Assembly: GCA_002726915.1 (NCBI GenBank)
Contig: PBSY01000038.1
Coordinates: 62,001 to 126,000 of the forward strand
Direction: 5' to 3'
DNA: 64,000 bases
Source of the DNA: Verrucomicrobiales bacterium
GTDB lineage: Bacteria > Verrucomicrobiota > Verrucomicrobiia > Verrucomicrobiales > DEV007
Position numbers and translations under genes: made by a program. The notes below the pieces were generated by a model that saw only the letters and a program-made list of their open reading frames with translations, had not been told where the DNA came from and ran no database searches. Within the stretch, counting starts at the first letter, position 1; each line of letters starts with the position of its first letter. Positions 49,976-53,482 of this stretch are shown piece after piece.

Positions 49976-50611
49976 ATGATGAAACGAGAAGTATTGCCGG
50001 AGATCCTTGACTCTCTGCCTCCAGACGATCCGCGCGCTATCCGCAGCCGCCGCGATTTAAAGCGACTTAACTTCTGCATGGGAAACGATCGCTGGATCCG
50101 GTCGGTTCTTGCGCGGAATGTTAAATTTGCACAAAAAGGCATCGTTGAAATCGGCGCGGGCAACGGTGATCTGCTGAAGACGCTCGCGCCACTTGCCCCA
50201 ACGGCAGGCCTGGATCTTCAACCTCGCCCCGAAGGTTTGCCGGCCGAGATTAAGTGGTATTCAGGAAACCTCCTTGAACAGCCTTCGCTTCCACCTGGTG
50301 GAGTGCTGCTCGCTAACCTGTTTCTCCACCACTTCGAAGCTGACGATCTTAAAACCATAGGGGCACTCATAGAACCTTTCGAGCTTTTGATCTTCTCAGA
50401 ACCTCTGCGTTTACGCCGCGTCCTCACTCTCAGCCAATGCGTCACACCTTTAGTTGGAAGCGTAACCCGCCACGACATGTCCGTAAGTATTCGGGCAGGG
50501 TTTAATATGGGCGAACTTCCCACATATCTTGGCCTCTCCGATTCTTGGCGGGTGACAGAAACGACCTCAGGTCTAGGTGCCATCCGAACCATCGCCAAGA
50601 GGCGACCATGA
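49976..50611 (+). CDS. Class I SAM-dependent methyltransferase of the T3PKS cassette
   Basis: A 211-residue methyltransferase with the SAM-binding glycine motif VEIGAGNGDLLKTL (about residues 59-72), followed by GLDLQPRP and the motif II-III region GGVLLANLFLHHFEADDL. Its last bases overlap the FAD oxidoreductase start (ATGA), and the T3PKS gene follows, so it probably methylates the polyketide product. Two adjacent ATG codons (49976 and 49979) could both serve. A TTGACT at 49889-49894 with TCACTT 17 bp on is a weak promoter candidate. Confidence 0.82.
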   Translation: MMKREVLPEILDSLPPDDPRAIRSRRDLKRLNFCMGNDRWIRSVLARNVKFAQKGIVEIGAGNGDLLKTLAPLAPTAGLDLQPRPEGLPAEIKWYSGNLLEQPSLPPGGVLLANLFLHHFEADDLKTIGALIEPFELLIFSEPLRLRRVLTLSQCVTPLVGSVTRHDMSVSIRAGFNMGELPTYLGLSDSWRVTETTSGLGAIRTIAKRRP

Positions 50612-51621
50612 AAACTGTTCGTATCATAGGTGGTGGGCTCGCCGGGCTGTCACTTGCAACTGGACTCGCCAAACGCAGGATTCCGGTCGAAGTAATTGAG
50701 GCGGGAAGCTATCCGAGGCACCGCGTCTGCGGTGAGTTCATTTCAGGTGTAGACTATTCCACTCTAGAGAAATTGGGTATCGCTGCGGATCTGCATGATG
50801 CCAAACTTCATACCACCGGCCACTGGTATCGCCAAGGCCGCAAGATCATGACGACGGAACTCCCTGATCCCGCTCGTTCCATCTCCCGCTGGCGGCTCGA
50901 CGCTCGTCTACAGCAACGAGTCGAAGGACTTGGCGGTAAAGTAGTGACTGAAACTAGAGCCGGACGCGACCCGGCGGAAGGAACTGTTCTTGCCGCCGGC
51001 CGACCCCTAGAAAAAAGCCGCTGGCTGGGCCTCAAATGCCATGTCAAAGGGTTTCGCATGGAGTCTGGGTTGGAGATGCATCTCGGGAGTAATGGCTATG
51101 TTGGTCTAACTCCAGTCGAAGAGGATCGCTTCAACATTTGCGGCCTCTTCCAGCTTCAGCCTAGCTGCCGAGGTAAGGGTAGCGATCGCTTGATGGCATA
51201 TCTTGACGAAGGTGGTCATCGTGAACTCATAGAACGCCTAAGAGATTCAGAAATCGACGAAAGCTCAGTCAGCGGGGTCTCCGCTCTCTCGCTCGGTTGG
51301 CAAAAAAAAGAAGATGGCGCGTTTGTCGTCGGTGATGCGGGCAGTGTCATTCCTCCATTTACCGGAAACGGCATGAGCATGGCCTTCGAGTCCGCATTGG
51401 GCTCCATCGAGCCACTCACCGCTTGGAGTTTCGGCGCCGAATCGTGGAGCTCAGCCACCCGGCGGTCCATGGCTATTCAACGCCAATTATTCCGAAAGAG
51501 AATCCGGACATCATTAGCATTACAGCGGGCGCTCCTTAACCCAAGGGGACAAAGCGTGTTCGAATTTCTCTCGAGTCGCAACATGGTTCCTTTCAATACT
51601 CTCCTCTCTCTCGTCCGCTGA
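50608..51621 (+). CDS. FAD-dependent oxidoreductase (geranylgeranyl-reductase/hydroxylase-like)
   Basis: A 337-residue flavoprotein. The ATG at 50608 starts MKTVRIIGGGLAGLSLATGL, the Rossmann FAD-binding GxGxxG loop. The RHRVCGEFISG block (about 34-46) is the one seen in geranylgeranyl-reductase-family and squalene-monooxygenase-like flavoproteins. The second FAD motif FVVGDAGSVIPPFTGNGMSMA is near residue 245. It probably hydroxylates or oxidises the polyketide. It overlaps the methyltransferase by 4 bp and ends 3 bp before the T3PKS gene. Confidence 0.88.
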   Translation: MKTVRIIGGGLAGLSLATGLAKRRIPVEVIEAGSYPRHRVCGEFISGVDYSTLEKLGIAADLHDAKLHTTGHWYRQGRKIMTTELPDPARSISRWRLDARLQQRVEGLGGKVVTETRAGRDPAEGTVLAAGRPLEKSRWLGLKCHVKGFRMESGLEMHLGSNGYVGLTPVEEDRFNICGLFQLQPSCRGKGSDRLMAYLDEGGHRELIERLRDSEIDESSVSGVSALSLGWQKKEDGAFVVGDAGSVIPPFTGNGMSMAFESALGSIEPLTAWSFGAESWSSATRRSMAIQRQLFRKRIRTSLALQRALLNPRGQSVFEFLSSRNMVPFNTLLSLVR

Positions 51622-51624
51622 CTC

Positions 51625-52665
51625 ATGTTTCTAGAATCCATCGCCACAGCCGTGCCTCCTAACAAGTACACTCAAGTCGATTGCCTTGCAGCCTTGCAGC
51701 AGTCACCTACTGCGAGTCAACTTCGTCCCGGATCAATGAGACTCTTGAAGCGCATTCTCGGAAGTGATAGTTCGGGAATTGATCAACGTCACTTTTGTGT
51801 CGATGAATTGACCCCCATTTTTGAACTGGATGCCCAAAGGCTCAACGAAACCTTTGAGCAACAGGCTCCAAAACTTGCTGCCTCGGCCCTCACGCCCGCC
51901 CTTGAGGAGGCAGGTATCCATGCGGGCGATCTCGATGCACTCTTTGTTTGCACCTGCACGGGCTACCTTTGTCCCGGAATCTCGAGCTACCTAGCCGAGA
52001 ATCTTGGAATGAATCCTTCCACTTACCTTCAGGATCTGGTCGGCCTTGGCTGCGGAGCTGCCATCCCAACGTTGCGGGCCGCCAAAGGCTTCCTCGCCGC
52101 ACATCCCGGCGCAAAAGTTGCCACGGTGGCCGTCGAAGTCTGCTCAGCAGCTTTCTACGCTGATGATGATCCCGGCGTGCTTGTCTCCCTTTGCCTCTTC
52201 GGTGACGGCGCCGCGGCGGCGGTCTGGTCCAATGATTACACTCCAGAAAGATGGCAGGCGAACCACTTTACCACGATCCACCAACCAAAGAATCGAGAAG
52301 AGATCCGCTTTGTCAATGCGGGCGGAAAACTTAAGAATAAGCTCGCAAAAACGGTGCCTGGTCTTGCAGCGGAGGCCGTGAAGAATCTTTTCCAAAATCG
52401 CCATTCCGATCCCGATAGGATTCTCTCTCACGCCGGCGGTCGCGAAGTTATTGAGGAAATTGAGAGACATCTCGATTGTAGTCTCAACGAGACGCGGGCT
52501 GTCCTTTCCGAATGCGGCAACATGAGCAGTCCATCAGTTCTCTTCGCCCTGGCGAAGGCGCTTGAAAAGCCAAGAGAAGACCGCCACTGGTGGCTTACCT
52601 CTTTCGGCGCTGGCTTTGCAGCGCACGCGTTCGAATTAAATCGCGATTTAGTCACCGCGACCTAA
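51625..52665 (+). CDS. Type III polyketide synthase (chalcone/stilbene synthase family)
   Basis: A homodimeric iterative ketosynthase that extends an acyl-CoA starter with malonyl-CoA and cyclises it. The 346-residue protein keeps the Cys-His-Asn triad: C143 in VGLGCGAA, H269 in LSHAGG and N299 in ECGNMSS. CTGYLCPGISSYL and LFGDGAAAAV are further family blocks. The product is probably an alkylpyrone or alkylresorcinol; the starter cannot be read. It is the third gene of a compact operon, and its 3' end overlaps the converging membrane-protein gene by 14 bp. Confidence 0.95.
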   Translation: MFLESIATAVPPNKYTQVDCLAALQQSPTASQLRPGSMRLLKRILGSDSSGIDQRHFCVDELTPIFELDAQRLNETFEQQAPKLAASALTPALEEAGIHAGDLDALFVCTCTGYLCPGISSYLAENLGMNPSTYLQDLVGLGCGAAIPTLRAAKGFLAAHPGAKVATVAVEVCSAAFYADDDPGVLVSLCLFGDGAAAAVWSNDYTPERWQANHFTTIHQPKNREEIRFVNAGGKLKNKLAKTVPGLAAEAVKNLFQNRHSDPDRILSHAGGREVIEEIERHLDCSLNETRAVLSECGNMSSPSVLFALAKALEKPREDRHWWLTSFGAGFAAHAFELNRDLVTAT

Positions 52666-53131
52666 TAAATGCTGCAAGAAGGGCAACCGAGATTACCAAT
52701 TTTCCCTGCCATAACCAAAATCGGATCCAGTTACCGCGTATCAGATTTTCAATGACCTCAGCATCGTAGCCGCTTGCGAGTTGATTGTGCTGAGGCACCT
52801 GAGCAAGGCCTGTTACAGCCCAAAGGGCGATTACAAACCCTGCGCCAACCGCTGCCAGATACTGCCATCGTCTCGCTGCGAATACCGCCAGCGAAAGAAG
52901 AGTCGCTCCCAACTCAATCACCATAAGAGGGCCGACAATCTTGGTAATTTGCTCCGAATACCACTGGTGATAAGCCACAAAAGAGTCATCGGGAATATCG
53001 AGGAAAGAAGGGTAGATGATCAGCTGCACCGCCGCAATAACACCAGCCATCGCCGCGCTGGAAACCAACGCCGTGAACACAACCAAAATCCCTCCAAGGC
53101 GGCTGGTTTCTTCTACTGCATTACCATTCAT
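52652..53131 (-). CDS. Four-helix membrane protein of unknown function
   Basis: A 159-residue protein with four membrane helices (about residues 12-35, 65-82, 90-108 and 135-155) and a polar loop holding YPSFLDIPDDSFVAYHQWYSEQI. It resembles DUF1772-like small membrane proteins but I cannot place it firmly. It overlaps the T3PKS 3' end by 14 bp on the opposite strand. The chosen ATG at 53131 gives a shorter N terminus than the frame from 53164. Confidence 0.7.
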   Translation of the reverse strand: MNGNAVEETSRLGGILVVFTALVSSAAMAGVIAAVQLIIYPSFLDIPDDSFVAYHQWYSEQITKIVGPLMVIELGATLLSLAVFAARRWQYLAAVGAGFVIALWAVTGLAQVPQHNQLASGYDAEVIENLIRGNWIRFWLWQGKLVISVALLAAFIRSR

Positions 53132-53193
53132 TCTGGATCGATTGGAAAAACAAAATAGATACAATGCGAATAATTGTTAAGAGTGAGATGCGA

Positions 53194-53482
53194 CTACTCG
53201 CGATGACAACGCCAAAAGCCCAGCCTCCTTATCACTGACCAGAGTTTCATGTAATTGGCCTTTATGTTCCAGTATTGCCGCCTGAGGGTAAGCCCATTAA
53301 TTTGCGCAAAGAAAATAAAAAGCGTGCCTATATCGACCTTTTCACCACCCTTGAGATACACAAACCCGCTCGGCAGCATAGATATTGGCCGCGTTTCCAA
53401 ATCCTTTAAGCGAAACTTGACCACAAGCCCAAAAGAGGAAGCGATAGAGTCAAAAAAATACCTTTCTATCTAACTGCACCAT
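53194..53482 (-). pseudogene. Small gene apparently split by a frameshift in a T7 run
   Basis: An ATG at 53482 reads MVQLDRKVFF and stops at TGA just after seven T residues (53458-53452). Removing one T joins it to an open frame that continues DSIASSFGLVVKFRLKDLET and then RPISMLPSGF, GTLFIFFAQINGL and WSVIRRLGFWRCHRE, about 95 residues in all. The joined sequence is protein-like. It matches no family I know. It precedes the four-helix protein gene by 62 bp on the same strand. A sequencing error, a real lesion or slippage could explain it. Confidence 0.42.

Follow-up and report, generated by a model that had tools for sequence, protein, structure and literature searches.

The operon and its distribution

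We analyzed a 64,000-nucleotide stretch of DNA (here called the window) from a Verrucomicrobiales bacterium (GCA_002726915.1), located on contig C38 of its draft assembly (3.5 Mb). Our subject is a set of three genes in this window encoding a class I S-adenosylmethionine (SAM)-dependent methyltransferase (MT), a flavin adenine dinucleotide (FAD)-dependent oxidoreductase, and a type III polyketide synthase (T3PKS)-like enzyme (Table 1). As a sequence-only reading of the locus had stated, the genes are contiguous and tightly coupled, with an ATGA overlap of the MT and FAD genes at 50608-50611 and a 3-bp gap between the FAD and synthase (PKS) genes. The MT-FAD-PKS trio is a real, widespread, and old verrucomicrobial operon.

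We searched the genomes of 56 relatives for the synthase. A further 387 genomes sampled across the phylum were searched with the NCBIfam model DpgA, which gave a match in 102. DNA stretches around many of the matches were scored with MT, FAD, and PKS profiles. The synthases were grouped into clade A (69 loci including the window), clade B, and clade C (three loci). At 56 of the 69 clade A loci the genes stand on one strand in the order MT>FAD>PKS, mostly with short gaps or overlaps, and at one further locus (G028) in the order PKS>MT>FAD. Across 57 loci, the pairwise distances of the three proteins were correlated (Mantel r 0.78 to 0.86; 0 of 999 permutations as high). Because the order is kept so widely and the protein distances are correlated, the association goes beyond chance; operon structure, conservation, and co-inheritance are shown directly, and the claim that synthase, methyltransferase, and flavin enzyme form one unit is supported. 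A fourth conserved gene was sought but not found; the other gene families each recurred at 7 or fewer of 68 cassette loci. We note that the MT of L107 (G033) and the synthase of L192 (G200) each lie in two pieces in different frames, through either sequencing errors or decay.

Outside these genomes, no clade-mates came from viral contigs, and plasmids gave one, from Caballeronia. This plasmid carries a synthase of the same clade in the order PKS>MT>FAD, followed by acyl carrier protein (ACP) and FabF-like ketosynthase genes (L133:11192-12708), a hint at ACP-bound substrates. Closer to the window, the synthase of Akkermansiaceae bacterium UBA1506 matches the window's at 87%.

Table 1. Genes and gene remnants at the locus, with positions in the window
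Feature	Positions	Strand	Remarks
Class I SAM methyltransferase (MT) gene	49976-50611	+	First operon gene; open reading frame (ORF) list and DNA
FAD-dependent oxidoreductase gene	50608-51621	+	Second operon gene; ORF list and DNA
Type III PKS-like synthase gene, clade A	51625-52665	+	Third operon gene; ORF list and DNA
Four-helix membrane protein gene	52652-53134	-	Converging on synthase gene; bystander
Dipeptidase (Peptidase_M15) gene remnant	53137-53424	-	Large internal deletion; contains small ORF
Small ORF, 76 codons	53194-53424	-	Inside dipeptidase remnant

The three enzymes and the apparent exchange of synthases

By its Pfam matches the clade A synthase appears to be of mixed nature, with a chalcone-synthase front half and a back half like that of ketoacyl-ACP synthase III (KAS III). 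The window's synthase passed the cutoff for Chal_sti_synt_N (58.6 bits, cutoff 27) and fell just under that for Chal_sti_synt_C (26.2 bits, cutoff 27). Its NCBIfam scores were 124 bits for DpgA and 53.4 bits for fabH, the latter short of the cutoff of 292.1, and T3PKSs were the best matches in a PDB sequence search, with the RppA-like 1u0m first (E 2.4e-26). The catalytic triad, Cys143-His269-Asn299, is intact, and Cys-His-Asn occurs in every aligned synthase, including 68 of 68 clade A rows. At loop residues 327 to 331, all 68 aligned clade A synthases read FGAGF, as do clade C (3/3) and the Caballeronia enzyme; the same loop has GPG in 27 of 27 clade B synthases and in 9 of 9 plasmid reference T3PKSs. 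In this alignment FGAGL stands in two of three KAS III rows, and FGPGL in a Beijerinckia gene that carries a KAS III annotation. The GFGPG loop is described, in the available part of PMC3036156, as important for cyclization in enzymes of the chalcone synthase/stilbene synthase type. In a tree of 111 rows, in which the program flagged several long branches, clades A and C and the Caballeronia synthase stood apart from canonical T3PKSs (support 97/87). The window's synthase grouped with loci of family f2 (10 rows, 100/96) and not with most other synthases of g1, the genus to which the window belongs, which suggests either transfer or a wide genus definition.

The MT is a soluble class I enzyme, as had been proposed: a profile search of the PDB matched SAM methyltransferases of this class, and NCBIfam PRK06202 matched at 29.3 bits (E 5e-7), the score of a distant relative short of the cutoff of 243. 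Residues G60, G62, and G64 are invariant in 29 aligned MTs. PRK06202 was also matched by the MTs of other T3PKS trios, those of Deinococcus (334 bits), locus L163 (172), Microvirga (109), and Caballeronia (51). Pfam gave no match at E≤0.01 for the MT or for either minus-strand gene, tblastn of the MT against plasmids gave none, and a literature search for PRK06202 found no paper. The FAD enzyme matched Pfam FAD_binding_3 (32.9 bits, cutoff 22) and, below the cutoff of 158.8, the geranylgeranyl reductase family TIGR02032 (62 bits). The best folds for its predicted structure (mean pLDDT 94.5) were ChlB4, PqsL, Mpy16, and PltA. Judged from sequence matches and this model, it belongs to the group A monooxygenase/geranylgeranyl-reductase/flavin-halogenase superfamily. 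A halogenase reading, prompted by the fold and by the chlorinated hierridin C, was rejected, as the WxWxIP motif of flavin-dependent halogenases was present in 0 of 45 FAD enzymes.

The same MT-FAD pair recurs in genomes with a GPG-type synthase. Nineteen of the 56 relatives carry clade A, 23 carry clade B only, and 14 carry neither. The two synthases are seldom found together (2/56 genomes, both among the 19; Fisher p 2e-4). Strong matches to the clade-A-type MT and FAD enzyme were found in 18 and 18 of the clade A genomes, in 16 and 11 of the clade-B-only genomes, and in 1 and 1 of the relatives without a T3PKS. Counted genome-wide, 34 of the 42 relatives that have a T3PKS of either clade showed a strong MT match, compared with 1 of the 14 that have none (Fisher p 1.2e-6; p 4e-4 when the six genomes of genus g4 were left out). 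These statistics are weakened by draft assemblies and by shared ancestry. Where both MT and FAD genes are present in clade-B-only genomes with fetched stretches, the MT>FAD pair has no synthase adjoining, and on quick trees of the FAD enzymes and MTs such lone pairs branch at several distinct points. Since a lone pair and an unlinked GPG-type PKS occur together in several lineages, the synthases may be interchangeable, and the simplest reading is that one synthase has repeatedly taken the place of the other while the MT-FAD pair stayed the same. The two genomes with both synthases (G023 and G029) have the FAD gene divergent from the clade A gene and the MT gene on another contig; they look like exchange intermediates. 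As a separate observation, a gene that by eye resembles an extracytoplasmic function (ECF) sigma factor gene follows the FAD gene on the same strand, at the synthase's usual place, at five loci (L227, L230, L232, L235, and L236).

Downstream genes and proposed function

Two minus-strand features lie beyond the synthase gene, and the sequence-only reading had considered both as possible companions of the cassette. As it described, the four-helix gene converges on the synthase gene; its end at 52652 lies 14 bp inside the synthase 3′ end on the opposite strand. An in-frame TTG upstream would move its start to 53164. The predicted protein consists of four long helices (mean pLDDT 94), with no match to PDB folds at E≤0.001. 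That all five genes form one system, the four-helix protein holding or oxidizing the lipid, plausibly as an anthrone-oxygenase-like oxidase, is very improbable. The gene does converge on the synthase gene in all four closest genomes, several polar residues (Q37, Y41, H56, Q112, H116, N135, and R138) are invariant across its family, and 8 of 16 family members weakly match Anthrone_oxy (PF08592, formerly DUF1772; best E 0.0012). Against this, the gene lies on the strand opposite to the trio, the window's protein scores 12 bits with that model, under the gathering cutoff of 27.3, and the gene adjoins the synthase in 4 of 19 cassette loci of the relatives. Homologues occur in 29 of the 56 relatives and, outside the four genomes, lie away from the synthase. 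Absence from other cassettes had been set beforehand as the refutation test, and the result went against both the membrane gene and the small gene; the membrane gene is a bystander outside the operon. Elsewhere (L196-L204), the family has a conserved neighborhood with a sodium/solute-symporter-like gene (8/20 loci, by eye) and an aminotransferase-like gene, several homologues sharing the symporter-like surroundings; linkage to a dipeptidase gene was not seen in 20 loci.

The small gene, rightly called broken, is a decayed D-Ala-D-Ala dipeptidase gene. One relative (G031, L094:560-1309) has an intact 249-amino-acid dipeptidase gene at the same place (PF01427, 162.7 bits) that overlaps the membrane gene by ATGA, and a portion of this dipeptidase gene can be aligned to the small ORF. 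In the window, UBA1506 (L032), and G014 (L005), most of the dipeptidase gene has been lost and remnants are left; in the window's copy the M15 domain is not intact, and nothing evident links this pseudogene to the cassette. A check had been proposed on whether the five genes travel together in other Verrucomicrobiota: the trio does, and the membrane gene and small gene do not. With the sparse membrane-gene linkage, the pseudogene, and the lack of any further gene at more than a few cassette loci, the five-gene cassette was rejected and two genes were removed from it. The flanks consist of a divergent RapA gene upstream and TrmB downstream.

Taken together, these data make it fairly probable, by analogy with the hidABC and mtr-fdo-t3pks operons compared below, that the trio is a three-gene operon making a methylated, oxidized phenolic lipid. 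The T3PKS-like synthase would take a long-chain acyl starter, bound to coenzyme A (CoA) or ACP, extend it with malonyl units, and release a phenolic lipid of the resorcinol or pyrone type. Methylation of this lipid, on its ring or on an oxygen, would fall to the SAM methyltransferase, and the FAD enzyme would oxidize the lipid, most likely by ring hydroxylation toward a hydroquinone or quinone. We infer the substrates and reactions, the sequence in which the steps occur, and the product. Several observations weigh against this reading. Twelve of the 69 clade A loci lack a complete same-strand trio: two have the FAD gene on the opposite strand, two lack the MT, two lack the FAD gene, and six have neither nearby, with at least two of the twelve (L099 and L110) at contig ends. 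Among clade-B-only relatives, 7 of 23 lack a strong MT match and 12 of 23 lack the FAD enzyme. The trio FAD enzymes of Deinococcus radiodurans and of L163 (clade B) are UbiH/PRK08244-like, a type that differs from the window's. Finally, the C-terminal half of the synthase scores above the cutoff for ACP_syn_III_C (35.2 bits, cutoff 26.6), and because it scores as KAS III and the GFGPG-type loop proline is missing, the chemistry of the synthase may differ.

These last features would suit a KAS III-like, single-step condensing enzyme yielding a beta-ketoacyl-CoA or -ACP, with the MT and FAD enzyme acting on a nonaromatic lipid. The FGAGF loop is like that of two of the three KAS III rows, ACP_syn_III_C is above its cutoff where Chal_sti_synt_C is below (the former matching 19 of 19 clade members), and ACP and ketosynthase genes stand in the Caballeronia operon. 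We nevertheless regard this as unlikely: the best PDB sequence matches are T3PKSs, DpgA outscores fabH by 124 bits to 53, Chal_sti_synt_N matches 19 of the same 19 members, and the MT-FAD pair also occurs with a GPG-type T3PKS in genomes lacking clade A. It is quite unlikely, in turn, that the clade A and clade B synthases make different products and that the lone MT-FAD pair of clade B genomes serves an unrelated substrate. The lone pairs are unlinked to the clade B gene, with the ECF-sigma-like gene after FAD at the five loci, and the pair is missing from some clade B genomes, which favors this reading. However, 13 of the 14 relatives without any T3PKS have neither MT nor FAD enzyme, the two synthases rarely co-occur, and the lone pairs are scattered among the cassette FAD enzymes and MTs. 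More tentatively than the phenolic-lipid operon, we raise the possibility that clade A is a separate polyketide-forming synthase between KAS III and T3PKS, with its own cyclization and possibly ACP-bound substrates, repeatedly replaced by canonical T3PKSs beside an unchanging MT-FAD pair. If this is true, evolution has itself run the experiment of exchanging two kinds of synthase in the making of one lipid.

In their available text, PMC9865893 and PMC11427321 list T3PKS clusters in Verrucomicrobiota by antiSMASH with no product given. Our search of the open literature found no study of this operon, of the GAG clade, or of a verrucomicrobial T3PKS product. The architecture is known already; what is unusual is the synthase loop and the exchange pattern. 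The phenolic-lipid reading offers a class-wide, defined operon for testing, in which one tailoring pair with a GAG- or a GPG-type synthase is the natural comparison, and it poses the question of whether T3PKSs that make lipids require the conserved loop proline to close a ring.

Comparison with known systems

The trio had been likened to srsABC of Streptomyces, which comprises a synthase, a methyltransferase, and a flavin enzyme. The combination of these three enzyme kinds as a unit stands, but the gene order differs, and the membrane-type (ICMT-like) methyltransferase SrsB finds no counterpart in the soluble class I MT. The hidABC genes and the planctomycetal operon are the closer parallel, with the same gene order.

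Two hid arrangements have been published, hidABC (MT-oxidoreductase-T3PKS) and PKS>MT>FAD, according to the available part of PMC8086630. Cyanobacterial hidABC (hierridin) has the same trio in the same order, and both published arrangements were also found here: hidABC- or hidCAB-like adjacency accounts for 56 + 1 of the 69 clade A loci, and the Caballeronia plasmid is hidCAB-like. The phylum differs, as does the synthase loop, GAG here versus GPG. The kinship to hid given here is one of architecture.

The same gene order is found in Planctomycetota, relatives within the Planctomycetes-Verrucomicrobia-Chlamydiae (PVC) group, where 58 of 96 T3PKS genes lie in an mtr-fdo-t3pks operon (Milke et al. 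2024, PMC10896814). As far as the available text of that paper goes, the T3PKS of G. maris makes C15/C17 alkylresorcinols, to which one methyl is added when mtr and fdo are co-expressed, and long-chain alkylresorcinols were obtained with synthases of three strains having the operon or a two-gene variant and with that of S. ferox (PMC10896814). By the same text the planctomycetal operon synthases cluster with HidC (PMC10896814), whereas clade A branches separately from the canonical T3PKSs in our tree.

Deinococcus plasmid trios (L218 and L220) also have three genes in a row, and the D. radiodurans MT is likewise of the PRK06202 family; they differ in their order (T3PKS>MT>FAD oxidoreductase), their GPG-type synthase, and, in D. 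radiodurans, their UbiH/PRK08244-like FAD enzyme. In Microvirga (L224), a GPG-type T3PKS gene is followed by a methyltransferase gene and then by a gene annotated as encoding an NAD-binding protein. We found no paper on the T3PKS-MT arrangement of Deinococcus or Microvirga. By its architecture, the verrucomicrobial trio resembles hidABC and the planctomycetal alkylresorcinol operons more than srsABC, and because these two are the closest in architecture, an alkylresorcinol-type product is suggested.

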